A stretch of 64,000 nt of DNA. Origin: Candidatus Thiodiazotropha sp. LNASS1 (GTDB lineage Bacteria > Pseudomonadota > Gammaproteobacteria > Chromatiales > Chromatiaceae). Under the pieces are notes generated by a model, which was not told the DNA's origin, ran no database searches, and saw only the letters and a list, made by a program, of their open reading frames with translations. The stretch spans positions 930,001 to 994,000 of the forward strand of contig NZ_OZ156465.1 in the NCBI RefSeq assembly GCF_964212655.1, given 5' to 3'. Position numbers and translations under genes: made by a program. Shown here one piece after another: positions 29,945 to 47,371 of the stretch (position 1 is its first letter; each line of letters opens with the position of its first letter).

Positions 29945-30587
29945 GTAAGTATCCCCCGGCAAAGCCGGGGGCTTTAGTTGTGAACCGCTCGAAGCGGTCT
30001 GTAAAACGGAGCCTATTGGCTCCTTGAGCCCCTCAAAGGGGCTGTTACATCAACTGTAATTGATCAATCCTGCGGTCTTCCGCTTCCTGGTGCCGTATAT
30101 ACTCCCGAATCACCTGCTCATCCCTGCCTACCGTCGAAGTAAAATATCCCCTGGCCCAGAAATGATGGCCAACATAGTTCCTTTTACGACCCAGGTAGGT
30201 ACGGGCTATGTGGATCGCACTTTTCCCTTTGATAAACCCAACTACCTGCGATACCGCATATTTTGGTGGTATCGATATCATCATATGTACATGATCAGCC
30301 ATGACATGCCCTTCCTCTATCAAACTCTCTTTCTGCCTTGCCAACCGATGGAATACCTCTCCAAGCTCCTGCCTGATCTGCCCAAAAAGCGTCTTCCTCC
30401 GGTACTTCGGGATAAACACAATATGGTACTTACACTCCCATCTCGTGTGGCTTAAACTTTCTACTTGTCTCATGGTTTCTCCTTAGCGTGTTGCTTGGCG
30501 GCTCACGCTTTGGGGTTACTATGAGACTCCTGTTTCTGTCAAACTGTTGATGCCTCCCCAGCAGAGCTGGGGGGTCTCCATTTTTGT
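29945..30587 (-). mobile_element. IS200-type insertion sequence (approximate ends)
   Basis: An IS200/IS605-family element with one Y1 transposase gene and no terminal inverted repeats. Subterminal hairpins mark each end: CCCCCGGC-aaa-GCCGGGGG at 29953-29971 and CCCCAGC-aga-GCTGGGG at 30556-30572. Several further small hairpins lie between the left hairpin and the transposase stop (for example 30008-30023 and 30027-30043). The precise cleavage points cannot be set without an empty-site comparison. The right side abuts the MITE at 30588. Confidence 0.8.
30045..30473 (-). CDS. tnpA: IS200-like Y1 HUH transposase TnpA
   Basis: A full-length, uninterrupted 142-residue transposase. It has the typical opening SHTRWECKYHIVFIPKYRRK, the HUH motif in ADHVHMMISIPP, and the catalytic Tyr in IREYIRHQEAE. 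AAGGAG lies 6 bases before the ATG. It cuts and joins single-stranded DNA at the element's hairpin ends. The gene looks intact, so the element may still be active. No tnpB or IscB partner is present. Confidence 0.95.
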   Translation of the reverse strand: MRQVESLSHTRWECKYHIVFIPKYRRKTLFGQIRQELGEVFHRLARQKESLIEEGHVMADHVHMMISIPPKYAVSQVVGFIKGKSAIHIARTYLGRKRNYVGHHFWARGYFTSTVGRDEQVIREYIRHQEAEDRRIDQLQLM

Positions 30588-30858
30588 CTAGGGCCTGTTA
30601 ACACTAATCCAATCGACTCTGCTGGAGCTGTTTTTTTACCCAGCAAGGCAGAATGAGCGAGGTTTAGCCGTGCTAAATGAGCGAATGATAACGCCGCTGG
30701 GTGGAAAAACAGCCCCAGCCCTTCGGGTTGTGCCTGAAAATGCGCCACTCGGCGTTGCTCGTCACTCATTTGGAATCACCAAACCTCACTCCTCGCGCCT
30801 TGATTGGCGCATTTTCAGACACAACAGAGCCGATTGGATTAGTGTTAACAGGCCCTAG
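30588..30858. mobile_element. 271-bp fold-back MITE with 34-bp terminal inverted repeats
   Basis: The ends 30588-30621 and 30825-30858 are inverted copies of a 34-bp sequence with one mismatch, starting CTAGGGCCTGTTAACACTAA. Inside lie two more inverted repeats: 30627-30644 with 30696-30713 (18 bp, two mismatches) and 30727-30746 with 30806-30825 (20 bp, one mismatch). The element can thus fold into a stem with two arms. It encodes no transposase. CTAG at each outer end may be a target duplication; CTAG/TA targets are typical of IS5 or IS630 relatives, which is inference. Its right end lies within the 3' end of the cfa reading frame. Confidence 0.85.
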
Positions 30859-31977
30859 TTGCCAAAGCTGCCCCTGGCGACTGCGGAAAAAACCGGCACA
30901 TGAGTGCAGATAGTATTTCCACATGCGATAAAAACGTTCGTCATAGTGCTTACGCAGCTCAGGCCAGGCATGGTCAAAATTATGCCACCAGGCCATTAAT
31001 GTTCGGTCATAGTCCGGTCCGAAATTGTGCCAATCCTGTATCAGGAACACAGATTCCAGGGATTGCGTTATCTCCTGTGCAGAAGGCAGTTTACCGTTGG
31101 GGAAAATATATTTATCTATCCAGGGATCTAATGTCTTCGCTGTTTTGTTCTGGCCGATCGTGTGCAGCAGGAACAAACCGTTATCCCTGAGCAATCTGTC
31201 TACGGTATGGAAATAGGTGCGATAGTTCTTGTGGCCTACATACTCGAACATGCCTACGGATACCACCTTGTCATAGCTGCCTGTAATTTCCCTGTAGTCC
31301 TTGAGTTCAACCGTGACAGGAAGATCCTTACAGCGTTCACGGGCTAGTTTCTGCTGTGCTTTTGACACGGTAATTCCAATCACACTAACATCGTAATGTT
31401 CGGCAGCATACTGCATCAAGGCACCCCAGCCACAGCCTATATCAAGCAGTCTCTCACCGGGTTGCAATTGAAGCTTGCGGCAGATGATATCCAGTTTGTC
31501 GTGTTGTGCCTGTTCCAAATTTTCCGCGGACTTCCAATAACCACAAGAGTAGCTCAAGGTCGAATCGAGCATGGCTTCGAATATGTCATTACCCACGTCA
31601 TAGTGCCGTTCACCCACTTGAAAGGCTCGAGTAATAGACTGAAAGTTGAACAGATAGTTGCGAATCAACTCGACGAGCATACTAAACTTAAACCAACCAG
31701 CAATTTGGTGATCGATATCAACTGTCATCAAGCGAGAAAATAATACATCCATTGCATCACACATCCAGTGGCCATCCATGAAAGATTCACCAAAACCGAG
31801 TGAACCCCGGGTCAGGACATATCGATACAGTTCTTTGTCATGTACTTGAATGTCCCACGGTCGATTGCCGTTAAACTGAACATCAGCCTGCTTCAGAAGA
31901 TCGACCAATACCTGGGGAGGCTTAAGCTCACCGTGAGGTTCATTATGCAGGCCGTGATTAATATTCACGGAAGGCAT
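30766..31977 (-). CDS. cfa: Cyclopropane-fatty-acyl-phospholipid synthase, MITE-altered C-terminus
   Basis: Cfa transfers a methylene group from S-adenosylmethionine to double bonds of membrane phospholipid acyl chains. Seen here are the SAM-binding LLDIGCGWGALMQYAAEHY, the active-site-type motifs YDVGNDIFEAMLDSTLSYSCGYW and SVGMFEYVGHKNY, and the C-terminal region FRSRQGQLWQL. After that Leu the frame enters the MITE, and the last 30 residues (beginning GPVNTNPIGSV) are encoded by the mobile element, which supplies the stop. The frame opens at 32055, but ATG 31977 has GAGGAG at 8 bases and gives the normal start. The protein (403 residues) should retain the full catalytic domain. Confidence 0.92.
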   Translation of the reverse strand: MPSVNINHGLHNEPHGELKPPQVLVDLLKQADVQFNGNRPWDIQVHDKELYRYVLTRGSLGFGESFMDGHWMCDAMDVLFSRLMTVDIDHQIAGWFKFSMLVELIRNYLFNFQSITRAFQVGERHYDVGNDIFEAMLDSTLSYSCGYWKSAENLEQAQHDKLDIICRKLQLQPGERLLDIGCGWGALMQYAAEHYDVSVIGITVSKAQQKLARERCKDLPVTVELKDYREITGSYDKVVSVGMFEYVGHKNYRTYFHTVDRLLRDNGLFLLHTIGQNKTAKTLDPWIDKYIFPNGKLPSAQEITQSLESVFLIQDWHNFGPDYDRTLMAWWHNFDHAWPELRKHYDERFYRMWKYYLHSCAGFFRSRQGQLWQLGPVNTNPIGSVVSENAPIKARGVRFGDSK

Positions 31978-32430
31978 AGGCAATCTCCTCTCAGGTAATC
32001 GGTAAAATATCAATTCACCTATTACAAATTGATTTATTTTTTGTGACAGGTTCAATCAATTGCATGGAGCCGTTTCATTGTCATTTTTTACAGATATGCA
32101 CCACCACAGCACTAGAACGTAGTTTCGCCAATATACTACAGTTTTAGTTATACAATTCCTGATGTTAGTAGATACGCTGCATATCACCTGCCGGTTTCAG
32201 ACCAACTGTTCACAATTCCAACCCAATGCTCAGCTGAGCATGCGCTCTCTTATGGAATTGACACAAACTGGTAACACAACAATAGCCCCCCCTCGGTACA
32301 AGGAGTGCAAACCAAATAATCGCACCACTACATCTCACCAGATTTTAATCAAAACGTTTATTTATGATCGTCCAGTGACACACTCTCCAATATATTTAAA
32401 GATAAATTGGTTATCTTACAGACACCCCAG
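31978..32430. other. Spacer between cfa and rpfF
   Basis: 453 bp upstream of cfa. It carries a perfect 16-bp palindrome at 32226-32241 but no convincing gene; a plus-strand frame at 32162 lacks a ribosome site and family features. Confidence 0.5.
32226..32241. promoter_or_regulatory. Perfect 16-bp palindrome ATGCTCAGCTGAGCAT
   Basis: A complete dyad in the spacer upstream of cfa and downstream of rpfF. It is a possible operator for a dimeric regulator; the regulator is unknown. Confidence 0.4.
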
Positions 32431-33339
32431 TTAACCATGACTCTGCATAGGCAAGTCAGTCGGCTTTTCTTGCGTTTCTTGCTGGCTCATCATCTTCGTT
32501 TGTGCCCTTACAAGACGCGACATCGCTGAAATATCCCTATCTGAGAGTGAAAATGCCGCATCCACCCAATCATGCGCAATATCAAGCAACTCTTGTTTCT
32601 CCAAGGGCATGATCCGGTTTCGCATCTTTAGTACTGAACGCCTGGTAATATTCGACTTATTGAGACGCTTGATGAATGATCTGAGCGCCAGCTCACCCTC
32701 ACCCGGATCTGCAACAACATCAACAACTCCCATCTCATAAAGCTGTTCTGCGGTATAACCTTCAGCATTAATGATCATTCTCTCCACCAATGCGGGTGAT
32801 ATCCGCCGGGACAGGAAGGAATAGGCACCCATACCAGGGAACATATTGAAAACAACCTCGGGAAATTTAAACACACTACCGGCTTCAGCAATGATGTAGT
32901 CACTGGAAAGTGCTGCTTCGAATCCCGCTCCAAGCGCTGTTCCGGTAACCAATGATATGGTGTGGACATTGGTATTGAGATTGATGAAATTGGCATACAG
33001 CACATCGATACTCAGCTCTGCATATTTTTGCAGGGTCTGCCTGTCGCCTGTTGTTATCATGTCCACAAAAAATTTCAAATCGCCACCGAGATTGAAAATT
33101 CCGGGCACATCGGAGCCAAAAATCAGGAAATCGATATCGGTCTTCGATTCAGTACTTTTTAGGTAATCACTTGTCCATGTCTGAAAACAGTTTATGTCTT
33201 TCAGTAATTGGGGTGAAAAACAGGGAATTGTGCCGGGATCCATGGCAAAGGTAAGGGTCCTGTAACTTTCATCATATCGAATGTTCAACGTGTCAAATGT
33301 CAACTCTGATATTGATTGTGTAGGTACGGCTTTAAGCAT
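32431..33339 (-). CDS. rpfF: DSF synthase RpfF (crotonase-family)
   Basis: RpfF makes the diffusible signal factor, a cis-2-unsaturated fatty acid, from acyl-ACP through dehydratase and thioesterase activities. The 302-residue crotonase-fold protein has the oxyanion-hole type VTGTALGAGFEAALSS and FPEVVFNMFPGMGAYSFLS, which resemble Xanthomonas RpfF closely. Starting at ATG 33339, the catalytic glutamates fall at E141 and E161, the same numbers as in Xanthomonas. That ATG has GAGGAA at 6 bases; upstream starts at 33399 and 33366 lack ribosome sites. It is divergent from an RpfC-type receptor kinase, as expected for a DSF locus. An ordinary enoyl-CoA hydratase is unlikely given this motif set and context. 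Confidence 0.9.
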   Translation of the reverse strand: MLKAVPTQSISELTFDTLNIRYDESYRTLTFAMDPGTIPCFSPQLLKDINCFQTWTSDYLKSTESKTDIDFLIFGSDVPGIFNLGGDLKFFVDMITTGDRQTLQKYAELSIDVLYANFINLNTNVHTISLVTGTALGAGFEAALSSDYIIAEAGSVFKFPEVVFNMFPGMGAYSFLSRRISPALVERMIINAEGYTAEQLYEMGVVDVVADPGEGELALRSFIKRLNKSNITRRSVLKMRNRIMPLEKQELLDIAHDWVDAAFSLSDRDISAMSRLVRAQTKMMSQQETQEKPTDLPMQSHG

Positions 33340-33730
33340 TTTCTGTTCCTCACGGGTAGATGTCATATAGGTCTGGTGATAGGTATGTTTAATTTCCATC
33401 GCATAAGAAAAATAGATGGTGGATTTATATTAGGCGTTGCCACCACAGGATAGAAACAGCATTTTATGAAATGTTTAAGGACTGAGTAATCAAGTCAATC
33501 TGATCGTGACTCAATTCCACATTCCCTGGGAAGTAGAATCGCTTAAGCAATTGATCCCGAGCAACATATTTTGACATTAAACTTTTTTATAGGAATTTAT
33601 TTCTTATAATGACTAAAATTTTGCCTATTCTCAGCCGCTATCATTGTCCTATACGTTTAAACGTATGACTTGACTGTTACAATGGCTGGTCTAGAAAACC
33701 TAAAATCAATCACTTAGGGGTATTTGTGCC
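33340..33730. other. Divergent control region between rpfF and rpfC1
   Basis: 391 bp with a 16-bp palindrome (33651-33666) followed by a TTGACT (33670-33675) and, 16 bp on, TAGAAA (33692-33697), a weak candidate promoter for the kinase gene. I see no other gene. Confidence 0.45.
33651..33666. promoter_or_regulatory. Perfect palindrome ATACGTTTAAACGTAT
   Basis: A 16-bp complete dyad three bases upstream of a possible -35 box (TTGACT, 33670) for the RpfC1 gene. It is placed as an operator would be. The binding protein is unknown. Confidence 0.5.
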
Positions 33731-36301
33731 ATGGCTGGCAATACATTGAAAGAGGTTTTTAAATTACCCAGACTCACTTTCATCTCCCATGGACTAAGTG
33801 ATGAGGCACGTCTGGAATATGAGCAGGGACTGATTCGCCTCTTTTTTACCTTCATCGTGTTCACCTATCTGCTGATTTCTGATCTGACCAACCCACTCGG
33901 AAGTACTCATGTAACAGCTACAAGGCTGGCAGCTGGATACGAACTATTCTCAATTCTGATTCTTTTATCGTTTATTTACATCAAACAGGGTTCAAAGTTA
34001 CGTAAAACCATCACCATGCTGGGTGATCATACGATGACCTGTCTCGCCATGTATGGCGCAGGTGAGGTTGGTGCGCCACTCTTTACTGTCCTACTCTGGA
34101 TCACCGTTGGATATGGCGCACGTTTCGGTAACAGCTATCTCTACCTGGGTATGCTGCTCTCGACCTCCGGTTTTCTGGTTGTGATCAACACAACACCCTT
34201 CTGGCTAGCACACCCGGTTGTGGGTTATGGATTGATCATCACCAATATCATCATACCAATTTTCGTCTCCAAGATACTTGGACAGCTGGTAGATGCAAAA
34301 GCTATTGCTGAGGCAGCAAACCAGGCAAAGGGGCGGTTTCTTGCAAATATGAGTCATGAGATGCGAACACCGTTAACAGGCATCATAGGTGTTTCTCAAT
34401 TACTGATGACTGAAAACCTGGGAAAAAGGATAGAGAAAAAAGTCAATACCATCGACTCCTCAGCAAAACACCTGCTTTCACTCATCGATGATGTCCTTGA
34501 TTTTTCGAAAATAGATGCCGGTGAAATCAAGATTGAACACCAGGAGTTTGATCTGCATTCACTTATTACAACTGTCAGCGCATCACTTGAACCAATCGCA
34601 AAGGAGAAAAACATCAGTTTGATGACCCATATATCTCCTGAAGTTCCGTTCAATCTGCTTGGTGACCACCATCGCATACAACAGGTACTTAACAACCTCG
34701 TGGGTAATGCCATCAAGTTTACTCATCAAGGCTATGTAGACATCAGAGTCAACCCATTACACACCACTGACTCAATGGTAAATTTAAGATTTGAGGTTAT
34801 AGATACCGGTATCGGTATTTCTCAAGAGGGACTGAAAAATTTATTTCAGCGTTTCAACCAAATTGATGATTCCATTACCAGAGAGTATGGTGGTTCAGGT
34901 CTTGGTACTACAATTTCTAAAGAGCTCGTTAACTGCATGGGTGGCGATATTCATGTGGAAAGCACGTTGGGAAAGGGGTCTCGGTTCTATTTTGATCTTC
35001 CACTCGAGATACCTGGGTCAACAAAGGAGCAGAGCTATACAGGACACACTACAATCACATTCACCAACAGCCTTCACTTCTACAATAAGATCAACCAACC
35101 CCTGAAGCTGTGGGAGATAGGCAATGATGTGGTAAGTACAATTGAAGAATTGACTGAACTTCTCACTCAAAGCACATCTATATCTGATCAACAACCCCTT
35201 TTAATTCTGGATGCAGAGTATATAGATGAAAATCTAGCACAACTTGCAGTAAGATTACGTGAAGTATCGGGTGATCAAGCCCATCTGATACTAATTGATA
35301 TTATCGGCAAATACCAACCATTTGATGTACCACCTGAAATAGATTCTGTAGTCCATGATCTGAAAAACCGACGCCAACTTTATAATGCGATTCACACTGC
35401 ATTTCTCGATACCAACCTACCGGAGGGTGTAGAGGCAATCGATAGCTGGGCACATTCCCAGAACCACGACAAACTCAAGATTCTTGTTGCTGAAGATACT
35501 GCCGTTAATCGTCTAATTCTCAGTGAGATGCTGATTAAGGCAGGCTATCAAGTCGAGTTGGTAGAAGATGGACAAAGTGCCTTGGAAAAATTCGAAGATT
35601 GTGAATACGATTTGGCCATCCTTGATATGCAAATGCCCCGAATCGGTGGACTTGATGTCATACGCGAGTACAAATCCGGGTATGGCCTAATAAAAGATAT
35701 ACCTTTTATCATACTGACAGCAAATATCTCGAAAGATGCGGAACAGCAGTGTCGAGAAGCAGGGGCCGATGTCTATTTACAAAAGCCAATCGATATCAGC
35801 GCCCTACTCAAGGAGATCCATCGTCTGACGGATCGTGGCAACAAAATTTCAGAACAGACTCCCACGACCTACATGGCAGGTCATAAGACTACTCCTTTTG
35901 CATCAAAAAGAATGCAATACCTAGACAGGGACACACTTGATCAGTTAACCAGATTGAGTACACGCGATGACTTTTTCAAGGAACTGGTCAACCATTTCCT
36001 TACTGATGTCTACAGTTGCATAGGACGCATGGAAATCGCTATACATGATACCGATATAACACAGATCATCGATGATGCACATGCAATCAAAGGTGCCGCA
36101 GGTAATATTGGTGCAATTTATCTGCTCGAAAAGGCCAGCAGACTGAATCGCTTGTCGAGTGAAGAGATCAGACGTAATGGACAAACCTACCTGAAAGAGT
36201 TGGCAGAAATCATCGATAAAACCAAGTCTGCCTTGGAGCAATATCTTGAAGACAATCACATCAACATAAAACTGGTCAACCGCAAGGAAAATCTAGATTA
36301 A
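33731..36301 (+). CDS. rpfC: RpfC-like hybrid sensor kinase with Hpt domain
   Basis: An 856-residue DSF-receptor-type kinase. Five or so membrane helices occupy about 35-185, in the same arrangement as Xanthomonas RpfC. The HisKA box [13 protein letters not shown] holds His209. The HATPase domain has DTGIGIS and [12 protein letters not shown]. The receiver domain has Asp632 in [14 protein letters not shown]-terminal Hpt domain has His784 in [12 protein letters not shown]. The N-terminal tract [20 protein letters not shown] corresponds to the region that senses DSF in RpfC. It is divergent from rpfF. The cognate regulator RpfG is not in the window. AGGGG precedes the ATG. Confidence 0.9.
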
Positions 36302-36574
36302 TTATTCTCAGCAGCGGTTACGGTAATTGTGCATCTCCTAACCCGGCCTGACACATCTACTGATGCCGAACACAATCCCATTTCAGGTAATCTATAAACA
36401 CTTTACTTTCAGTAATTTTTAGATAGATATCTTGTCGTGTCTTTCCATGCAGTGTCAGATGACAATGTACGTTAGAAAATTCAATTCTTATTAGACGCAA
36501 CATTGTGCTTTCCATCCTTGGCACAATAATTTGATCTCAATTATTTCGATACTGCTCATATAGAATATTAAGAT

Positions 36575-38680
36575 CTATGACCTGCCATCTTTGCCATTAC
36601 GCTCATCTTTTTTTGTTATCAGTATTTGCTGAACTTCTGCTTTTAAATCTGCTCCTCTCAATGGCTTACTGAGATATTTGACGCCTATACTATCGCATGC
36701 CATCTGTGCTTCCTTACTCACATTGGCAGTAAGGACGATAAACGGCAGTTCAGTTCGGCTACCCTGTGTATTACGAAATAACTTGATCACATCGAGCCCC
36801 CCATGCCCCGGCATCATCATATCCACAATCGCTAAGTCAAAGTCTTGCGCCTCTAATTGATCAAGGGCTGTATCCCCATTATCTACCAATACCACCTTAT
36901 GCCCGTCTTGCTCAAGAAATCTACACGTTACTCGTTGATTTATCTTGTTGTCTTCTGCGACTAAAATATGGCCTGTTAGTAACGACTTTGCTGTTGCATT
37001 ATCTTGATCTGGCTGTAATTCAGTATCATTGAATGTCGCTGTCTGCAAACTATGTAATACGTTGAATAAACGTTCACGTTCAATCGGTAGTGGTTGTATA
37101 TCGATATAGTCGAATTTGTTAGCATCTTGCGATTCACGTGTTTTGTCAGTGATCAATATCAAGTCTCTACTGGCAAGTCCTGATTTACCAAGTATCGACT
37201 TATCTCCATGCTTCAAACAACGTGTATCAATAAGTACAACTGTTTCGTCAAAATCTGTTTGTAATGTAATTCCCATATCCACTGTGCAGCTTATTTTCCA
37301 CTCCCCTAACCACTCGCATAAAGTCTTGATTAATTTACTGTCACTACTGATTAAGCGGATACCAGCAGGAAACCTCAAATACTGTACACTAGCTGGCACA
37401 CTCGCACGCTGACAGTCCATAATCAAAGTAAACCGGCTGCCTTTGCCCATCTCACTTGAGGCTAAAAGCTGTCCATCCATCAAATCAACCAATTGCTTGG
37501 CGATGCTCATGCCTAAACCTGTACCCCCAAATCGTCTGTTGATCCCCTCATCCTCTTGTCGAAATGGGTCAAAAATATAAGATTTAGCCTCTTCAGATAT
37601 ACCTATCCCTGTATCTTCGACAGTTAACTTTATTTGCACACTGTCACTTGTCACGCTGTTGGCTTCTACTCGTACTTCAACCCACCCCTGATTAGTAAAC
37701 TTTACAGCATTTCCAACCAAGTTAACCAAGACCTGGCGCAAATGCAGTTCATCTCCGATCAACCAGTATGGACATGCCGGTTCAATATTACGTTTTAGTA
37801 CCAGATTCTTTTTTCTTGCCTCATTGTTAAACAAGCCGACAACACCGTTTATTAGAGCGTGCAAATCAAAAGGAGCATTTGCAATTATTATGCGTCCTGC
37901 TTCAATTTTGCTAATGTCCAATACATCATCGACCAAGTGCAACAGCATAGCTGCTGATGATTGAGCTCCATGTACCAGTGACTTCTGCTTTTCCGCCAAA
38001 GGTGTAACACTTAGCAACTCCAATAACCCGATTACACCATTAATAGGTGTACGGATTTCATGACTCATATTGGCCAGAAACCGGCTTTTGGCTTCATTTG
38101 CGGATTTGGCAGCATCCAGAGCACGTGATAGTTTAGCCAATAATGAAGCAATGTACATGGGCAGTACAATTAATCCGATCCACAAACTCCAACCTATGAT
38201 AGGATCCTCTCTCCACTCTGCGTTGTAGCGCATTACTAAAATAAAGCCCATTGCAGCAAGCACAGTAGAGGCAGCTAAATAGCGGTTTCCGTAACGCAAC
38301 CCATAACCGGATGATACCCATAGATATACAACGTAAAGTGGAGTCATCATCTGACCGTAATAGTACAAAAGATATGTAATCATCCCCATGTCACCAAGCA
38401 TACATATTATTCGCCTGGTAACAGAGATGCCTGGATTGATTGCAATCGCTATTAATATTACCGTGGAAAATACCAAGAATAGACAGAGAATTATCAGACC
38501 GTGCTTTACAGACTCGCTTTGCTCGCCAAGTAGTGACGACAACCCAAGATAGATCAGCACTATTATCGTAATAGCAATCCTGACAAGGGATTGTTCATGT
38601 TCAGAGTCTGGCCGATTTTTAAAGCGGGTAATAATCCTCTGAACAATCGATAAAGAACGAGTGATATTTTGTTCAATCAT
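36575..38680 (-). CDS. Second RpfC-like hybrid sensor kinase, no Hpt domain
   Basis: A 701-residue paralogue of the neighbouring kinase. The N-terminus RPDSEHEQSLVRIAITIIVL is even closer to Xanthomonas RpfC than that of the first copy. Membrane helices lie at about 35-185. HisKA is ANMSHEIRTPINGVIG with His207; HATPase motifs DTGIGIS and GTGLGMSIAKQL follow. The receiver has Asp620 in AIVDMMMPGHGG. It stops after the receiver, so there is no Hpt domain and no sign of a frameshift. It converges on the first kinase with 273 bp between. It could pass phosphate through the Hpt of the first kinase or use another Hpt protein; this is inference. Confidence 0.88.
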   Translation of the reverse strand: MIEQNITRSLSIVQRIITRFKNRPDSEHEQSLVRIAITIIVLIYLGLSSLLGEQSESVKHGLIILCLFLVFSTVILIAIAINPGISVTRRIICMLGDMGMITYLLYYYGQMMTPLYVVYLWVSSGYGLRYGNRYLAASTVLAAMGFILVMRYNAEWREDPIIGWSLWIGLIVLPMYIASLLAKLSRALDAAKSANEAKSRFLANMSHEIRTPINGVIGLLELLSVTPLAEKQKSLVHGAQSSAAMLLHLVDDVLDISKIEAGRIIIANAPFDLHALINGVVGLFNNEARKKNLVLKRNIEPACPYWLIGDELHLRQVLVNLVGNAVKFTNQGWVEVRVEANSVTSDSVQIKLTVEDTGIGISEEAKSYIFDPFRQEDEGINRRFGGTGLGMSIAKQLVDLMDGQLLASSEMGKGSRFTLIMDCQRASVPASVQYLRFPAGIRLISSDSKLIKTLCEWLGEWKISCTVDMGITLQTDFDETVVLIDTRCLKHGDKSILGKSGLASRDLILITDKTRESQDANKFDYIDIQPLPIERERLFNVLHSLQTATFNDTELQPDQDNATAKSLLTGHILVAEDNKINQRVTCRFLEQDGHKVVLVDNGDTALDQLEAQDFDLAIVDMMMPGHGGLDVIKLFRNTQGSRTELPFIVLTANVSKEAQMACDSIGVKYLSKPLRGADLKAEVQQILITKKDERNGKDGRS

Positions 38681-39132: not shown

Positions 39133-40317
39133 ATGGACAACCAGACTGAACGGCTAAAAGTACTGGCTGGCGGTATTATCAGCCTGATATTGATGTTGGG
39201 CATTGCCCGTTTTGCCTATACACCGCTACTCCCGATCATGCTGGAACAGGCCGGATTAGGACTTTCCCAGGGAGGCTGGTTAACGGCGGTCAACTATCTA
39301 GGTTATCTGAGCGGGGCTATCACGGCATCACTGATCAGTAATCTGGTACTCAAAGACCGTCTCTATCGTATCGGTCTGGTCGTGGCGGTGGTATCCACCC
39401 TGGGTATGGGACTTACAGAGAACATATGGCTCTGGTCCTTCTACCGCTATGTTGCAGGTTTAAGCAGTGCTGCGGGACTGCTGTTGGGCTCCGGTCTCAT
39501 TCTGAACTGGCTCATACGACACGGTCATCGCAGCGAGCTGGGCATTCATTTCAGCGGTGTCGGCCTGGGCATTGCGTTTGGCGCCATTGCGGTGGAACTG
39601 ATGAGTCACCATTTCGATTGGCGTGGACAATGGTTGATGCTGAGCCTGATGGGAACCCTGATGGTTTTACCCGCGTGGGCATGGCTGCCTTCTCCCGATA
39701 CCAGCCAGGTCACACGCAGCGGTAAGGTGATGGTCGATACACCACCCAGCCGACGCTTTTTGCAACTCTTCATGGCTGCTTACTTTTGTGCTGGTGCGGG
39801 CTATGTGGTCAGTGCCACCTTTATCGTAGCCATTATCGATCAATTACCCGGTCTCAACGGGCTGGGCGCCTGGAGCTTTTTCATCCTCGGCATGGCCGCG
39901 GCGCCCGCCTGTATCCTTTGGGACCTGGTGGCACGTCGAACAGGCGATCTCAACGCCCTGCTCATCGCCTTCCTGCTGCAGACTGTCGGCATCCTGTTAC
40001 CGGTGGTAGCTCATAGCCCCATCATGACGATGGCCGGGGCGTTGTTGTTTGGCGGAACTTTCATCGGCATCGTCAGCCTGGTACTGACCATGGCCGGGCG
40101 CTACTACCCTACCCGCCCCGCCAAAATGATGGGAAAAATGACCATTTCCTACGGCATTGCACAGATCGTCATTCCTGCCATTACGGGAGTGCTGGCTGAA
40201 CGTAGCGGCAGCTATAGTGACGGTCTCTATCTGGCCGCCGGCATCATGATAATCGGCTCATTATTGATAGCCGGCCTGAGACTGTTCGAGACCAAACAAA
40301 ACACCGCCACTTTATAA
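39133..40317 (+). CDS. YbfB/YjiJ-family MFS transporter
   Basis: A 394-residue inner-membrane transporter with about 12 hydrophobic segments. The first helix segment GIISLILMLGIARFAYTPLLPIML and GGWLTAVNYLGYLSGA are characteristic of the YbfB/YjiJ family of major facilitator proteins. The substrate is unknown. It converges on the cus operon and is probably a single-gene unit. Confidence 0.88.
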   Translation: MDNQTERLKVLAGGIISLILMLGIARFAYTPLLPIMLEQAGLGLSQGGWLTAVNYLGYLSGAITASLISNLVLKDRLYRIGLVVAVVSTLGMGLTENIWLWSFYRYVAGLSSAAGLLLGSGLILNWLIRHGHRSELGIHFSGVGLGIAFGAIAVELMSHHFDWRGQWLMLSLMGTLMVLPAWAWLPSPDTSQVTRSGKVMVDTPPSRRFLQLFMAAYFCAGAGYVVSATFIVAIIDQLPGLNGLGAWSFFILGMAAAPACILWDLVARRTGDLNALLIAFLLQTVGILLPVVAHSPIMTMAGALLFGGTFIGIVSLVLTMAGRYYPTRPAKMMGKMTISYGIAQIVIPAITGVLAERSGSYSDGLYLAAGIMIIGSLLIAGLRLFETKQNTATL

Positions 40318-40433: not shown

Positions 40434-40787
40434 TCACTTGTCCAATTCCATGACGGTAATACGAAACTGTTTGTCACGACCTTTTTTTACCGTAAAGTTA
40501 ACCTTGTCATTTGGTTTGAATTCAGACAAGTCGACCCGTCTTGTAACCGGCAAGTCCATTGTCATCCCCATCCAATTGAGCTCGGGAATTGGTTGGTGTG
40601 TCAGATTGACGATTTTGTTTTCCATATCGATTTTGTGTAGCACGCCCTTCCCCATACCATGATTAGCGCTACTCGTCATTTCACCGTGACCATGCATACT
40701 ATGGCCGCTGTGGCTGTCACCTATAACTGGAGCAGCGATGATCACACCGGCAACCACAATTGAGATCAATTTTATTACTTTGTTCAT
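40434..40787 (-). CDS. cusF: Periplasmic copper-binding protein CusF-like
   Basis: CusF carries Cu(I)/Ag(I) in the periplasm and delivers it to CusB. The 117-residue protein has a signal peptide (about 1-23), a His/Met-rich linker (HSGHSMHGHGEM) and a CusF domain. That domain has the metal site pattern with His in VNLTHQP, then the Trp-Met-x-Met cluster in LNWMGMTMDL, as in E. coli CusF. The frame opens at 40826 inside cusA, but ATG 40787 has GAGGA at 8 bases and begins the signal peptide. It is the last gene of the operon. Confidence 0.92.
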   Translation of the reverse strand: MNKVIKLISIVVAGVIIAAPVIGDSHSGHSMHGHGEMTSSANHGMGKGVLHKIDMENKIVNLTHQPIPELNWMGMTMDLPVTRRVDLSEFKPNDKVNFTVKKGRDKQFRITVMELDK

Positions 40788-40800
40788 GCTCGAAATCCTC

Positions 40801-43800
40801 TTAGGGCAGTCTGGATGAGTATTCATCGGTTTTTTGAGAAGTCGGTACAGTCTCGGGTAGCCGGCGTGCCTCCCAGATTAAATAGATCACAGGAATCACG
40901 ATAAGGGTCATGACGGTAGTGCTGACCATACCGCCCACCATTGGCAAAGCAATTCGTCGCATGACATCAGAACCAGGCCCCTCAGTGAAAAATATTGGCA
41001 ACAAGCCGGCAATGATGACTGAAACGGTCATAAGCTTTGGCCTAACGCGTAAAGCAGCACCCGCCATAATGGCGGCAAACAATTGATGCCGATCCAACGG
41101 TGGTAGAGTACGCACCTGCTGATCGATATAGAGCAGCATTATCACAGCAGTCTCCACAGCGATGCCACCAAGTGCTATAAAACCGACCGCCACGGCCACC
41201 GAAAGATTGTATCCCGCAAGATACACCGACCACATACCGCCCACCAGGCCGAACGGTAAGGCGGTCATTACCATCACCGTACGATCGGTGCGGCCAAAAT
41301 GAATCATCAAGAGTACAAGGATAATGGCAACAGCTCCGGGTATCGCGATTTTCAAGTTGCTTCTCGCCTCAAGCATCTGTTCGTATTGACCGGACCATGT
41401 AACAGCGTAACCCTGAGGCAACGTAACTTGATCAGCCACAAGCTTACGCGCTTCATCCACATAACCGCCAATATCACGCTCACCAATATCCACAAATACC
41501 CAACCGGTTAATCTGGCATTCTCCGACTTGATCATAGGAGGGCCTTCGGTAAACTTGATTTCGGCCAGTTCACCGAGAGGAATATGCATACCGCCAGGTG
41601 TCGGCACAAGAACCTCGGTGAGGTCCTGCACAGATTCGCGGAACGGCCTGTCATAACGTAGAATGATGTTATATCGTTCCCGTCCTTGCACACTTTCCGC
41701 CACTTTCATCCCACCGAGCGCGGTTTGAATAATAGACTGAAACACACCAAGATCGATATTTCTCCGCGCCAATTCATCTCGATTTGGTGTAATTTCCAGG
41801 TATTTGCCGCCGGTTACACGATCGGCAAATACACTACGGGTTCCCTCCACATCCTTGACTACCGCTTCCACATCTAGTGCGATACGCCCAATCTCTTCAA
41901 GATCCGCACCGGATATCTTTATGCCGACTGGCGTGCGTATACCCGTTGAGATCATATCCATTCTGATCTTGATGGGATAACCCCAACTGTTGACCAAACC
42001 GGGTAACTTCACCTGTTGATCCAGGATCTTGATCAATTCGTCTATATTCACCTCCGGCCGCCACAGTTCCCTCGGCTTGAGGCGAATCCAACTCTCTATC
42101 ATTGATATTGGTGCGGGATCCGTAGCTGTATCGGCCCGTCCCAACTTGCCGAAAACCTGCTCCACTTCGGGCACGGAGCGAATCAAGCGGTTGGTCTGTG
42201 CCAAGACCTCCTTCGCCTTGGTGATAGATACACCCGGCAATGTGGTCGGCATATAGAGCAATTCTCCTTCATAGAGAGCGGGCATAAACTCTGAGCCAAG
42301 CTTGGATAGCGGGTACCACAGACTGGCAATACCCAGCAATGCGATCATCAGCGTCAACCAACGAACCCGCATAGAAAACTGTAGGACAGGTTTGTACAAC
42401 GCAACAAAGAGACGATTTAGTGGGTTAGCCTCCTCACGGCGTATTCTGCCTCGGATCAGCCAAAGCATGAGAATAGGTACTATGGTGACCGAAAGCAGGG
42501 ATGCAAAGGCCATGGCATAGGTCTTGGTGTACGCCAGCGGCGAGAATAACCGGAAACTTTCGCCAGTCAGTGCAAAAACAGGCAAAAAGGAGACGGTGAT
42601 GATCAAGAGGCTGAAAAAGAGACCTGGTCCAACCTCCTTGGCCGATTGCAGGATAGCTGCGTTACGCGCCTTTTGACCCACGGAATCTGGCATGTCACTG
42701 AGCTTTCGATGGGCGTTCTCCACCATCACGATTGAAGCATCCACCATTGCCCCGATCGCAATCGCTATGCCACCGAGCGACATGATATTGGCGGTAATAC
42801 CCTGTGCTGACATCACAGTGAACGCACCCAGCACACCTAGCGGTAGGGTAATGATGGCGACAAAGGCCGAGCGTGCATGTAACAGGAAAAGGATGCAGAC
42901 CAGGGCAACCACAATTCCCTCTTCAACCAGCTTGTGGCTGAGATAATCAACGGCACCCCGGATCAGGGGTGCCCGGTCATACACGGTTCGGACCTCCACA
43001 CCTTCGGGCAGACCTCGACGCAGAATATCGAGCTTTTCCTTCACTGCCTTGATCACGTTCAGCGCGTTTTCTCCGGAACGCATGACCACGATACCACCGA
43101 CAACCTCGCCTTCACCGTCCAGTTCCACAACCCCGCGCCTGAGCTCTGGCCCCTCCAGTACTCTGGCAACATCAGTGATCAATACAGGCGTACCGTTACG
43201 CGCCCGCACCACAACCCTCTGTAAATCCTCCAAGGTTGATACATAGCCTCGGGAACGGATCATTAATTCGGTCTCGGCCCGTTCCAACACCCTGCCACCC
43301 ACCTCCATGCTGGCGGCTTCAACCGCCTCGCGTACCCTAACCAACGGGATGTCATAAGCGCGCAATCTGTTTGGATCAATCAGCACTTGGTACTCGCGTA
43401 CAAATCCGCCAACAGCGGCAACCTCAGATACGCCGGAAACAGTTGCGAGCTCGAAGCGCAAGAACCAATCCTGCAACGCGCGCAACTCGGCCAGATCATA
43501 GCGGCCGGTTCGGTCCAGGAGGGCATATTGGTAGATCCAACCCACACCTGTGGCATCGGGACCGAGTCGAGGGGTGGCGTTTTCGGGAAGATCATTCTGT
43601 ACCGTCGCCAAAGCCTCAGCGACCCGACTACGTGCCCAATAGTCATCAACACCATCCTGAAATATGACGTAGACGAAACTCGTTCCAAACATGGAAAAAC
43701 CACGCACCGCTTCTGTCTTTGGCAATCCTAGCAGGGTGGTGGAGAGCGGATAAGTCACCAGTTCTTCAACGATCTGTGGCGCCTGCCCTGCGAAATCAGT

Positions 43801-43998
43801 GCGGATAATCACTTGCGTATCGGAGAGATCGGGAATCGCATCCAGAGGTGTGCGATCAATCGCAAGCATACCCGCGACAGCCAAGGCCGTGGTTAAGATC
43901 AACACGATCAACTGATTGTGAACCGACCAGCTAATTACTTGGGCGATAAAGGACCGGGAGGGATCCTCTCCCACAATATCGCTTGCATCATGCATCAT
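40801..43998 (-). CDS. cusA: Copper/silver efflux RND pump CusA
   Basis: A 1065-residue inner-membrane heavy-metal RND transporter with 12 membrane helices and two large periplasmic domains. MPTTLPGVSITKAKEVL and IRMDMISTGIRTPVGIKISG match the CusA subgroup, whose Met residues handle monovalent copper and silver. The proton-relay region GGIAIAIGAMVDASIVMVEN is present. It uses the proton gradient to export metal through the CusCBA channel. It is in order cusC-cusB-cusA-cusF and starts 28 bp after cusB. CzcA-type zinc/cobalt pumps are related, but the CusF and Met motifs favour copper/silver. Confidence 0.94.
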   Translation of the reverse strand: MMHDASDIVGEDPSRSFIAQVISWSVHNQLIVLILTTALAVAGMLAIDRTPLDAIPDLSDTQVIIRTDFAGQAPQIVEELVTYPLSTTLLGLPKTEAVRGFSMFGTSFVYVIFQDGVDDYWARSRVAEALATVQNDLPENATPRLGPDATGVGWIYQYALLDRTGRYDLAELRALQDWFLRFELATVSGVSEVAAVGGFVREYQVLIDPNRLRAYDIPLVRVREAVEAASMEVGGRVLERAETELMIRSRGYVSTLEDLQRVVVRARNGTPVLITDVARVLEGPELRRGVVELDGEGEVVGGIVVMRSGENALNVIKAVKEKLDILRRGLPEGVEVRTVYDRAPLIRGAVDYLSHKLVEEGIVVALVCILFLLHARSAFVAIITLPLGVLGAFTVMSAQGITANIMSLGGIAIAIGAMVDASIVMVENAHRKLSDMPDSVGQKARNAAILQSAKEVGPGLFFSLLIITVSFLPVFALTGESFRLFSPLAYTKTYAMAFASLLSVTIVPILMLWLIRGRIRREEANPLNRLFVALYKPVLQFSMRVRWLTLMIALLGIASLWYPLSKLGSEFMPALYEGELLYMPTTLPGVSITKAKEVLAQTNRLIRSVPEVEQVFGKLGRADTATDPAPISMIESWIRLKPRELWRPEVNIDELIKILDQQVKLPGLVNSWGYPIKIRMDMISTGIRTPVGIKISGADLEEIGRIALDVEAVVKDVEGTRSVFADRVTGGKYLEITPNRDELARRNIDLGVFQSIIQTALGGMKVAESVQGRERYNIILRYDRPFRESVQDLTEVLVPTPGGMHIPLGELAEIKFTEGPPMIKSENARLTGWVFVDIGERDIGGYVDEARKLVADQVTLPQGYAVTWSGQYEQMLEARSNLKIAIPGAVAIILVLLMIHFGRTDRTVMVMTALPFGLVGGMWSVYLAGYNLSVAVAVGFIALGGIAVETAVIMLLYIDQQVRTLPPLDRHQLFAAIMAGAALRVRPKLMTVSVIIAGLLPIFFTEGPGSDVMRRIALPMVGGMVSTTVMTLIVIPVIYLIWEARRLPETVPTSQKTDEYSSRLP

Positions 43999-44025
43999 GA
44001 TTCCTTCTTCTGAATCGATCTCTGC

Positions 44026-45657
44026 TCATTGCACCAACGCCCCCTTGCTGCCATCGAGATAGGGGCTGAATACCTGGTCGCCCTGCTGTACCCACAATCG
44101 CCCATCGGTTACGTCTTTGAACAATCGCACCCCCTTTTCGTGGTAATAGTCTTTTCTACCATCCAGCATCCAAGGCCTTAGAGCACTGACCAAACCATGT
44201 AATGCATTCCGCAAGTCACTCTCTGTTCGTGCCTGTTGGGCTTCAGCGATGGCATGATTAGCATTGTCTAGAACCGGCCCCAACCGGGTATTACCGAACT
44301 TCGGCCATAGCAAGTCGCGAATCTCCAGTGCAGGCTGCAACTGCACGGGATCGACATCGTAACCATCAGCCAAAGCCTCGTGCAGATATAGGCCAGCGTC
44401 GACCAGATGATCCACCATCGCCATCTGCGCCTTACTCAGGTTTAGATCGGCCAACTCCAGTTTGAGACGCTGGAGTTTCTGAAAAGACTCTCGTAGCGCA
44501 CTCTCAGAATCGATGAGAAACTGGCCAGAGGCGACGATACGCTCATCCCTGTCTATTCCTTCAACCACCTCGGTAAATCCGCCACTGCTCAGTCCTGTAC
44601 GTACCTGGCGTGGCTGAAAACGACCGTTCCCAAGCGCCACAACCAGATAGGGGCCATCGGCACCGATTAACAGTGCACTATCCGGTACCGCCAATCGACG
44701 ATCCAACCCTACCTCGAACAGCACATCGGCATATGCGCCGGGCCGAAGCCGGTTATCCTTGTTATCCAGCTGTAAACGCACTGTACCGGTCCTGCTCGAT
44801 CGATCCACGGTTGGGTGAATGTAATCGACGCTGGTCTCAATCACCTGGCCTGGAAGATTGGGGAGCATGATACGAACTTGTGTCGTACTGTTGATTGCCA
44901 CCAAGTCCTTCTCTGCCACAGCAGCATTAATCCAAACCGTGGAGTAATCCTGAATTACTGCCAAGGTCTCCCCGGGCCGCACATAGGTTCCTTCCCTAAC
45001 CCGTAAATCGCTCAAAGTACCGTCGGCTGAAGCGTAAAAAGGTACCTGTTCCACGACGCTTCGTTTCTTACGCAGCGTGGCGATAAACGACTTGGAAACA
45101 CCCAAGGCACCAAGCCTGATCGCTGCAGACTGAATACGGTTTGCGCTTTGTCTTTCCAGAGCGCTGAGATAGTCCTGTTGAGCCGCTACCAAGTCTGGAC
45201 TGAACAATCTGTATAGCAAGTTACCGCGTTTTACCTTATCACCGACAGCGGTTACAGCGAGCGACTCTATCCAGCCTGCCACCCTGCTCGATATCTCACT
45301 ACGCAATCGTTCGTTCTCCGCCACCACGCCATAGGCACGTATACGACGGCCGAATACCGTGGCTTCGGGTTGTGCGTAGCGTACCCCCATGTTCTGAATG
45401 GTCTCTGGTGCGATGGTTATCGCGGCACGTTCACCGTCTGTATCTTCTTCCTCGACAGCCAGCTCTGGCCCAGACGTCATTTTTACCAAGTCCATACCAC
45501 ATATGGGACAACTCCCCATCTCGTCGGCGATATAGTGCGGATGCATCGGACAAGTATATTTGGCGCTGTCCCCCTCTTCGCCAGCGCCCACTACAGAAGA
45601 TACCAGGAACAACACAATCCCTAACATGCGGGGATTCAATAACTGAATCGGAGTCAT
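44026..45657 (-). CDS. cusB: Copper/silver efflux periplasmic adaptor CusB
   Basis: A 543-residue membrane-fusion protein with a signal peptide (about 1-25). An N-terminal heavy-metal-binding domain (about 34-62) has YTCPMHPHY and GSCPICGMDLV. The barrel-sandwich and beta-barrel domains follow (EISSRVAGWIESL; VREGTYVRPGETLAVI). The region beyond about 400 is a longer C-terminal tail with a helical DUF3347-like part, seen in some CusB proteins. It links CusA to CusC and binds metal received from CusF. It overlaps cusC by 4 bp. Confidence 0.93.
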   Translation of the reverse strand: MTPIQLLNPRMLGIVLFLVSSVVGAGEEGDSAKYTCPMHPHYIADEMGSCPICGMDLVKMTSGPELAVEEEDTDGERAAITIAPETIQNMGVRYAQPEATVFGRRIRAYGVVAENERLRSEISSRVAGWIESLAVTAVGDKVKRGNLLYRLFSPDLVAAQQDYLSALERQSANRIQSAAIRLGALGVSKSFIATLRKKRSVVEQVPFYASADGTLSDLRVREGTYVRPGETLAVIQDYSTVWINAAVAEKDLVAINSTTQVRIMLPNLPGQVIETSVDYIHPTVDRSSRTGTVRLQLDNKDNRLRPGAYADVLFEVGLDRRLAVPDSALLIGADGPYLVVALGNGRFQPRQVRTGLSSGGFTEVVEGIDRDERIVASGQFLIDSESALRESFQKLQRLKLELADLNLSKAQMAMVDHLVDAGLYLHEALADGYDVDPVQLQPALEIRDLLWPKFGNTRLGPVLDNANHAIAEAQQARTESDLRNALHGLVSALRPWMLDGRKDYYHEKGVRLFKDVTDGRLWVQQGDQVFSPYLDGSKGALVQ

Positions 45658-46958
45658 GAGCCATCCTCCACCAATAGGGCATTGATTCTGGCAGCGGAAA
45701 TGGTACGCGCTGCGCGCTGTTTCGCCTTGTCCAGTGCAATCTCGGTTCGCTGAATCGCAGGACGAATGACATCCTCAAGTGAACCGTCACCCGCTTCGTA
45801 ACGCCTCCTGTTGGCAGCTTCAAGCTCGCTCAGCCTTCCGTTGCGTCTGGTCAATGCTCGTAACAAGTTATCCGATGTACGGTAGTCCGCCATGGCATCA
45901 TCATATTTTCCCCGTGCCTCTCTTAATCGGTGTTCCCGTTCAGCCGTCGCACTCGTTACCGCCTCTTCCGCGGCAATCAATCTGGGCCGTTGATTGGAAT
46001 CCGCCCAAAACGGGATGCTAACGGTGAACTTGAACGTAAGCCAATCCTTACCGTCGAAATTCGATCCTGACTCCCGTTGTTGCCAAGCCATACCCAAAGC
46101 GTAATCGGGAGATAATGCTGCCTTTTTTTCGTTTACTTGGGATCGTGCCACTTCAAGTTTCCGTTGCGCCCCCCGAACGGCAAGTAATTCCGAAGCGTTT
46201 CCCGTCCATTCTCGAGGTTCGATATCGAGTAATATATTCTGATCCGGAACCGTATCGAGGAGCTCTCTTAATTCAGCCTGCCAACGAAGGTCTTCGCCAT
46301 CTAGCGCAACCAGTCTCTCCTCGATTCGTCCGCGTTGTACATCTAGCTCATCAAAGCGGGCGTAAACAGAATTCCCTCCTTTCATCTCGCCGCGAAGCCA
46401 ACGTTCCAGTTCACTAATAAGATCCAGTTGTCCGCTCAATGCTCCTTTGGATTCCACAATCCGTCGCCTTTCAGCCAACGCGGTTATCAGTCTTTCCTTC
46501 AACTTGGCCAGAACTTTTAATCGTTCCAATTCCGCCACTTCCGAGCGTGCAAGATGTGTACGTCGTACTGCTTCCCGTGCGTCTCCATTGGGGATTGCCT
46601 GCTTAAATTCCAGGCTGCGGTTGCTGGGTAAATAGCGTTCGAGATTCAAGGGATCATCTGCAGGCACATTGTTCAAACCGATCGTTATGCTTGGATTAGG
46701 CAAACCCAGTGCGCCATCCGAGTTATTGCTCCATTTCCTTGCAATCGACTCATTCATACGAACCTCGGGGTGTTCATGCAAGCGATCCACCATTGCTTCA
46801 AGTGGAGTCAATTCCGCTCTCGCCGCTGTATGACCAACGGCTAGATAAAGCATCAACAGCAATACATACAGGTACCGGCGGCCACTAGACAGCGCGCCGT
46901 AACGACCTGAGATAGAATATGATTTACGCGACAATAGCGCCGCGTTAACAGAGTACAT
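45654..46958 (-). CDS. cusC: Outer-membrane efflux protein CusC (TolC family)
   Basis: A 434-residue TolC-family protein with two outer-membrane-efflux repeat halves made of long coiled-coil helices (about 60-250 and 265-430). A signal peptide occupies the N-terminal 48 residues (LLLMLYLAVGHTAARA). The frame opens at TTG 46997, but ATG 46958 has GGGGGGA at 7 bases and is preferred. It forms the outer-membrane exit of the Cus pump. It lacks an obvious lipobox, unlike E. coli CusC. Confidence 0.88.
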   Translation of the reverse strand: MYSVNAALLSRKSYSISGRYGALSSGRRYLYVLLLMLYLAVGHTAARAELTPLEAMVDRLHEHPEVRMNESIARKWSNNSDGALGLPNPSITIGLNNVPADDPLNLERYLPSNRSLEFKQAIPNGDAREAVRRTHLARSEVAELERLKVLAKLKERLITALAERRRIVESKGALSGQLDLISELERWLRGEMKGGNSVYARFDELDVQRGRIEERLVALDGEDLRWQAELRELLDTVPDQNILLDIEPREWTGNASELLAVRGAQRKLEVARSQVNEKKAALSPDYALGMAWQQRESGSNFDGKDWLTFKFTVSIPFWADSNQRPRLIAAEEAVTSATAEREHRLREARGKYDDAMADYRTSDNLLRALTRRNGRLSELEAANRRRYEAGDGSLEDVIRPAIQRTEIALDKAKQRAARTISAARINALLVEDGS

Positions 46959-47023
46959 TGAATATCCCCCCACGCATGAGTTCACCTTTGTGAACAAAAG
47001 CCAACCTTAAGTCAGGAACGCAA

Positions 47024-47371
47024 CTACACGGGGAAAATCTTTGGTGGGGGCGTTTCGACAGGGTGCTCTGAGCGTGGAGCTGCCGCAGTGACAGGAGTGA
47101 GAATCACCGATTGCAGTGAGACGAAGACACTTATTCGAGACCTGGAGCATTGCGTCACGAAGCCGCAGAAAACACATCCTTTTTCCGAAAAGATGGTAGA
47201 TGGGTCTCCGGTATCGTGACAATTAAGATACTCGGAAGTCACCTCCATGTTGAATGTTTGCGGTGATCCATCACTATTTCCGGCGAACTGGGGCCACGAC
47301 ATCAACATCGTTGCATGCAATAGCAGAAACGACAGAATACAGATAACCCAAGGATCTCGATTGGTCTTCAT
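47024..47371 (-). CDS. Small exported Cys-containing protein leading the cus operon
   Basis: A 115-residue protein with a signal peptide (about 1-24; ICILSFLLLHATMLMSWP). The mature part has three close Cys residues with a His (NCHDTGD, EKGCVFCGF) and a TQC, then a Pro-rich tail ending PPPKIFPV. It lies 65 bp before cusC on the same strand and may be the first gene of the efflux operon. Metal binding by the CxxC pair is inference; no family is recognised. The reading frame has signal peptide character, which supports it as real. Confidence 0.6.
   Translation of the reverse strand: MKTNRDPWVICILSFLLLHATMLMSWPQFAGNSDGSPQTFNMEVTSEYLNCHDTGDPSTIFSEKGCVFCGFVTQCSRSRISVFVSLQSVILTPVTAAAPRSEHPVETPPPKIFPV

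Follow-up and report, generated by a model that had tools for sequence, protein, structure and literature searches.

A putative DSF-type quorum-sensing locus with two RpfC-type kinases of different ancestry in Candidatus Thiodiazotropha sp. LNASS1

A 64,000-nucleotide stretch of the 4.75-Mb single-contig genome of Candidatus Thiodiazotropha sp. LNASS1 (the window, G000:C1:930001-994000) carries, side by side, a gene of the rpfF family, predicted to direct the synthesis of a diffusible signal factor (DSF), and genes for two RpfC-type hybrid kinases, designated C1 and C2, which are of different ancestry. C1 is the native (ancestral) receptor partner of rpfF and has the full HisKA-REC-Hpt relay. 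The favoured reading, which is given about an even chance of being right, is that the three genes form a DSF-type quorum-sensing locus and that C2 is a DSF receptor recruited from another lineage, lacking an Hpt and relaying via an Hpt in trans. Genomes compared are given G-numbers (G000 being the window genome) and locus stretches L-numbers.

Organization of the locus

The rpfF-family gene, encoding a DSF synthase-like crotonase, occupies 32431..33399 on the minus strand as a 322-aa open reading frame (ORF). C1 (33731..36301, plus strand, 856 aa) is divergent from it and is followed by C2 (36575..38680, minus strand, 701 aa), the coordinates and strands as first read having been borne out by an ORF check. 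In Pfam searches C1 has the order sensor-HisKA-HATPase-REC-Hpt (HisKA 199-264, HATPase_c 311-426, receiver 584-696, Hpt 751-818), and its Hpt domain (35981..36184, plus strand) has the phospho-acceptor His, in the motif HAIKGAA. C2 is a sensor-HisKA-HATPase-REC protein (HisKA 197-262, HATPase_c 309-422, receiver 572-683) in which no Hpt was detected by Pfam or by a hidden Markov model of the family. The two kinases are 36% identical over 684 positions. The initial annotation had given both of them an RpfC-type membrane region, HisKA, HATPase and receiver, with an Hpt in C1 and none in C2, and this description holds: the membrane regions align in pairwise BLAST with that of RpfC from a Xanthomonadaceae-like genome at E values of 7e-47 (C2) and 5e-31 (C1). 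The term Xanthomonadaceae-like refers here to two genomes with the same family code, one of which has an RpfF that is almost the same in sequence as PDB 7zq7 and similar to RpfF of Xanthomonas campestris pv. campestris (Xcc).

Ancestry of the two kinases

A tree of 97 kinases was built after removal of near-duplicate genomes, of kinases shorter than 600 aa and of rows whose N-terminus could not be read. In it C2 and three relatives share a 14-row clade (SH-aLRT 100) with 10 RpfC kinases from other families, all linked to rpfF, eight of them under 1 kb from rpfF and two about 2.6 kb away. C1 groups in the same tree with kinases from Sedimenticola and Thiotrichales. A chosen subset of 36 rows gave an agreeing tree (C2 clade 97/99, C1 clade 100/99), in which a constraint placing the C1/K3 and C2 lineages together (K3 is a further RpfC-type kinase of the genome, described below) was rejected (p-AU, the approximately unbiased test, 0.0026); the same result rejects C2 as a local duplicate of C1. 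The presence of two RpfC-type receptors at the locus, as originally proposed, stands, with the amendments that they differ in ancestry and that the genome total is five.

The RpfF tree resembles the C1 tree, RpfF grouping with homologues from Sedimenticola, Thiolapillus and Thiotrichales (93/91), although this is a likeness between trees and not a formal co-evolution test. A single search at E <= 1e-30 over 21 Thiodiazotropha genomes, mostly drafts and including the window genome, found rpfF in 14, and in a sample of 369 genomes from across the class 67 have it at E <= 1e-35. All 14 rpfF-bearing Thiodiazotropha genomes have a C1-type kinase divergent from rpfF (cut short in G008, where the contig ends, and read in two pieces in G009), so that the pairing is not attributable to chance. 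Sedimenticola, Thiotrichales and several other lineages have rpfF and its RpfC in convergent orientation, with an RpfG nearby.

High-similarity C2-type sensors were found in four of the 21 genomes of the genus, namely G000, G009 (95%), G017 (72%) and G006 (71%; percentages over the sensor), and only in G000 and G009 is such a kinase beside rpfF. A pair of RpfC-type kinases (counted if at least 480 aa and within 4 kb of rpfF) occurs in two of 100 rpfF locus records, a set in which some genomes or their near-identical kin recur: the window and G029, to which G009 can be added if its split C1 is accepted; 17 records have no such kinase, some of these stretches ending at a contig end. C2 may have entered by transfer into the genus or be an old gene that was lost elsewhere. 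Its site lies between C1 and a gene for a major facilitator superfamily (MFS) transporter, a gap of 2831 bp in the window with C2 and, in three close relatives, of 293 bp (G015), 293 bp (G020) and 209 bp (G019); only short, mostly imperfect repeats flank C2.

The RpfF-family synthase

The crotonase had been read as an RpfF-type synthase and not as an ordinary hydratase, a view that the present searches uphold. It scores 327.5 bits against the PRK08788 model (cut-off 177) and its best PDB matches are four RpfF-type chains at 190 to 172 bits, the next being an ordinary hydratase at 47 bits; identity as an ordinary enoyl-CoA hydratase was rejected on these grounds. In the tree three hydratase-type domains from the same genome fall outside the RpfF group, by a weak split (69/74) with very long branches. 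Neither of the two outcomes named beforehand as contradicting the DSF assignment, a crotonase placed among hydratases and membrane regions that do not align with RpfC, appeared. Against the NCBIfam RpfF equivalog NF053515 the protein reaches 213.1 bits, below the cut-off of 550, and since it passes only the broader PRK08788 cut-off it is called RpfF-family here and not an RpfF equivalog.

The catalytic glutamates E141 and E161 of Xcc RpfF, whose motifs the initial annotation had recognized, align with E161 (32917..32919, minus strand) and E181 (32857..32859, minus strand) of the 322-aa ORF. The first position is E in 96 of 98 aligned RpfF homologues and Q in two; the second is E in all 98. Translation probably starts at Met21 (window 33339, giving 302 aa), since most sister ORFs begin about there and the stretch aligned to the long form contains stops in five of the 14 genus genomes with rpfF; with this start the numbering becomes exactly E141/E161. 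The protein shares 98% identity with its counterpart in Ca. Thiodiazotropha endolucinida (L009) and 62-89% with those of nine other lucinid-symbiont records; its dN/dS against G009 is 0.08. From family membership and the catalytic residues, we infer that its product is a cis-2-unsaturated fatty-acid signal.

A merely fatty-acid-related crotonase, next to hybrid kinases that sense a non-DSF cue with no quorum sensing at all, would agree with the missed equivalog cut-off and with the predicted status of the quorum-sensing function. This ordinary explanation is very improbable in view of the catalytic pair, the PRK08788 membership, the four RpfF-type chains heading the PDB matches and the rpfG-rpfC-rpfF neighbourhoods of relatives.

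The sensing ends of C1 and C2

In Xcc RpfC, changes at R15, D17, S18, E19 and Q22 impair DSF perception, S18T being largely tolerated (PMC5391125; this and the other papers cited are drawn on from excerpts). The aligned segment of C2, RPDSEHEQ (38591..38614, minus strand), keeps all five residues, and that of C1, EARLEYEQ (33803..33826, plus strand), keeps two, E19 and Q22. The alignment register is supported by the kinases of the two Xanthomonadaceae-like genomes, which read REDSEHAQ and RPDSEHGQ at the same segment. The remaining RpfC-type sensors of the genome keep three (K4), two (K3) and three (K5). Among 75 rpfF-adjacent kinases (three without a readable N-terminus dropped, near-identical genomes and one partly readable row included, Thr as well as Ser accepted at position 18), five residues are kept in 24, four in five, three in five, two in 37 and one in four, so that the complete set is no general feature of kinases linked to rpfF. 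The difference between the N-terminal residues of C1 and C2 lends indirect support to their sensing different signals.

Two rpfF-adjacent RpfC proteins from other genomes (L260:4589-7321 in G307 and L261:7858-10953 in G272) have the membrane sensor region in two tandem copies, like the Stenotrophomonas maltophilia RpfC described, in an excerpted source, as having ten transmembrane regions. A 638-aa protein of G030 (L128:14917-16833), 5.9 kb from rpfF, has an RpfC-type sensor and a REC domain, with a weak match to Hpt (20.2 bits against a cut-off of 24.6) and no HisKA or HATPase match in Pfam.

Probable loss of the Hpt and possible outputs of C2

The absence of an Hpt from C2 is probably a loss, because relatives in two sister species, G006 and G017 (65% identical to C2), still carry the domain (Pfam 50.1 bits for G006, where the phospho-acceptor His is present). 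The short form is common to the window genome and G009. C2 stops soon after its receiver, and a search downstream for an Hpt remnant found none, the only strong match there being the end of C1 itself. Decay into a pseudogene was considered unlikely: the ORF is intact, the HisKA His and receiver Asp are kept, and dN/dS against G009 is 0.20, a single pairwise estimate. An AlphaFold2 single-sequence model of C2 was unusable (mean pLDDT 37.8).

Under the favoured reading, RpfF would make a cis-2-unsaturated fatty-acid signal; C2 would bind a DSF-family acid, autophosphorylate and pass the phosphate to its own receiver, and from there it would go to an Hpt in trans, for which the nearest candidate is that of C1. 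The relay would end at RpfG, with breakdown of cyclic di-GMP, or at another regulator, and C1, given its different N-terminal sensing residues, would answer to a different acyl chain or cue. That C2 shares the Hpt of C1 is suggested by proximity and by the outcome of one Pfam scan of the genome, which found no stand-alone Hpt, all 14 Hpt matches lying in open frames of at least 768 aa. Alternative outputs for C2 are gating of RpfF by its receiver and transfer to an undetected Hpt.

The first of these can be put in a stronger form, in which C2 is purely a gate: its receiver would hold RpfF inactive until DSF binds, an Hpt would be unneeded, and C1 or K4 would do the signalling. RpfC is reported to repress RpfF (PMC4517397, excerpt), C2 lies in the rpfF locus, and its Hpt has gone while receiver and sensor stay under constraint, as a gate would allow. 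Furthermore, the best receiver-only PDB match of both kinases is the Xcc RpfC receiver from its complex with RpfF (3m6m_D; 4.8e-20 for C2, next match 1.5e-14; 5e-17 for C1, next match 7.4e-16), although for C1 the margin is small. In a pure gate, however, the intact HisKA His and receiver Asp of C2 would be superfluous, and this model is considered possible but rather doubtful.

It is unlikely, in turn, that C2 is an independent receptor of the kind represented by PA1396, with an orphan Hpt and its own regulator elsewhere in the genome and an accidental or merely co-regulated proximity to rpfF. PA1396 is itself an Hpt-less RpfC-like kinase that uses an orphan Hpt (PMC4504480, excerpt), the Hpt-less kinases K3 and K5 also sit away from rpfF in this genome, and the C2 relatives of G006 and G017 are on contigs other than that of rpfF. 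The absence of a stand-alone Hpt in the Pfam scan and the rpfF linkage of the wider clade of C2 speak against such independence.

Several observations weigh against the reading of C2 as a recruited receptor relaying through a neighbouring Hpt, besides the failure of RpfF to reach the equivalog cut-off. Phosphotransfer from C2 to the Hpt of C1 is putative, and Pfam may have missed a stand-alone Hpt of divergent sequence. In G009 (L009 / L132), the nearest relative and the sole other genome with C2 at the rpfF locus, a single-base difference breaks C1 into two ORFs (253 and 560 aa). Unless this is an error of assembly, it tells against a fixed relay from C2 to C1; dN/dS for the two pieces of C1 against G009 is 0.07 and 0.14. 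Loss of sensing residues does not amount to loss of DSF sensing, since 37 of the 75 rpfF-adjacent kinases keep only two, and C1 may sense the product of its own RpfF as well as C2 does. Linkage to rpfF is dispensable for kinases of the C2 type, as G006 and G017 carry C1 with rpfF on contigs other than that of the Hpt-bearing C2 relative. Finally, the C1-to-MFS site is variable in itself, for in G003, the fourth relative compared, it spans 1952 bp and contains a different ORF, C2 being absent.

RpfG and the wider set of sensors

RpfG had been noted as missing from the window, correctly, and the genome-wide search located it 394 kb from the rpfF locus as a 389-aa REC-HD-GYP protein (G000 1357795-1358964; L069:4796-5965) close to the RpfC-type kinase K4. 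Among nine HD-GYP proteins of the genome it is the best match for all 41 REC-HD-GYP proteins compared from rpfF loci, by about 120-290 bits, although these comparators were picked by their similarity to this very protein and the test is thus partly circular. The five RpfC-type sensors of the genome are C1, C2, K3 (G000 1511924-1514032), K4 (G000 1360899-1363400) and K5 (G000 2052645-2054771), and only C1 and K4 have an Hpt, that of K4 scoring 22.4 bits on the ORF (cut-off 24.6) and 26.1 bits in the genome scan.

All 11 K4 loci fetched have a K4-type kinase together with RpfG, including those of G004, G005, G013 and G018 (L135, L140, L136 and L084), genomes in which rpfF had no match at E <= 1e-30. 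Such genomes are possible listeners to the signals of other cells. A broader proposal is advanced only tentatively. In it the locus has recruited an RpfC of another lineage with the DSF-binding end but no output domain, two receptors tuned to different acyl signals feed one Hpt (or one RpfF) in trans within a five-receptor network, and RpfG, no longer coupled to the synthase, persists together with a receptor of its own in relatives that make no signal, the listeners.

Between rpfG and K4 lies a gene for a 636-aa membrane protein (L069:5962-7872; G000 1358961-1360871) with an RpfC-like REC-Hpt tail and no kinase match in Pfam. In all 11 Thiodiazotropha copies the receiver Asp is replaced by Asn and the Hpt His by Gln or Gly, and two homologues from other genera keep the Hpt His. 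From these residues the protein appears to serve the RpfC/RpfG pair as an adaptor that is conserved but catalytically dead. In G116 a protein that joins an RpfC-type sensor to a GGDEF domain (L237:3992-5137) is encoded between rpfG and rpfC, the place occupied by rpfH in Xanthomonas.

Comparison with known DSF systems

The locus resembles the rpfF/rpfGHC system of Xanthomonas in the catalytic pair of RpfF, the domain order of C1 (sensor-HisKA-HATPase-REC-Hpt), the N-terminal DSF-sensing residues of C2 and the presence of a REC-HD-GYP RpfG in the genome. It differs in that the rpfC operon of Xanthomonas is convergent to rpfF (PMC8357829, excerpt), whereas rpfF and C1 are divergent, and also in the remote position of rpfG beside another RpfC-type kinase, the second RpfC at the locus and the total of five sensors.

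RpfC-like receptors without an Hpt (PA1396) are already known, and so are second DSF sensors (RpfS; BCAM0227 beside RpfR), as far as the excerpted sources describe them. PA1396 of Pseudomonas aeruginosa, compared here by its description, shares with C2 the RpfC-like form without an Hpt; it answers the DSF and BDSF of other species via an orphan Hpt and PA1397 (PMC4504480), whereas C2 lies in the rpfF locus of its own genome beside an Hpt-bearing RpfC, with no stand-alone Hpt detected by Pfam. RpfS and BCAM0227 (with RpfR) are likewise accessory DSF sensors in organisms that also have a core receptor, but their input domains (PAS_4; two transmembrane helices with a large periplasmic loop) are not of the RpfC type (PMC4504480, same excerpt), that of C2 being RpfC-type. 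In S. maltophilia two rpfF-tied RpfC variants, rpf-1 and rpf-2, occur in one species (PMC4517397, PMC5928129), each strain having one variant according to the excerpts, in contrast to the two RpfC-type kinases in one locus found here. A further parallel is the locus of G029 (L082), from another genus of the same family, in which rpfF has an RpfC-type kinase on either side, the two belonging to different lineages; there, however, both kinases have an Hpt (one above the Pfam cut-off, the other at 20.8 against 24.6 bits) and rpfG is adjacent.

The excerpts of PMC8357829 and PMC5928129 contain no account of a single rpfF with two RpfC receptors from different lineages, and the literature searched yielded, among the matches listed, no paper linking DSF or rpfF to Thiodiazotropha or lucinids. 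RpfC/RpfG genes are reported from Hiromi 1, a sulfur-oxidising bacterium of an animal-symbiont lineage (PMC4136832, excerpt), and in Leptospirillum ferriphilum the domains of RpfC are split over two proteins (PMC8357829, excerpt).

If the favoured reading is right, a DSF circuit has gained a second receptor by relocation of a gene of another lineage and loss of a domain, and not by local duplication; C1 and C2 would be a natural pair for identifying the N-terminal residues that determine DSF specificity; and fatty-acid quorum sensing would be placed in a genus of animal symbionts, the sulfur-oxidising partners of lucinid clams. Sister genomes without rpfF that have an RpfC-type kinase and RpfG offer a testable split between producers and listeners. 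A bearing on biofilm formation or host association is conjecture.

Neighbouring genes

Downstream of rpfF is a gene for a cyclopropane fatty acyl phospholipid synthase (30766..32055, minus strand), to which no role in the circuit is assigned; it adjoins rpfF in G001, G003, G006, G009 and G019 and was not seen there in G015 and G020. A 142-aa ORF near the locus (30045-30473, minus strand) resembles, by its sequence, a small transposase of the REP or IS200 type. The right-hand neighbour of C2 is a gene for a YbfB-type MFS transporter (39133..40317, plus strand), which directly adjoins C1 in G015, G019 and G020. Between it and a gene at 47687 lies a block (40434-47371) that, judged by its sequence, resembles a resistance-nodulation-division (RND) heavy-metal efflux pump; it is absent at the same place in G015, G019 and G020 and is apparently another insertion near C2.

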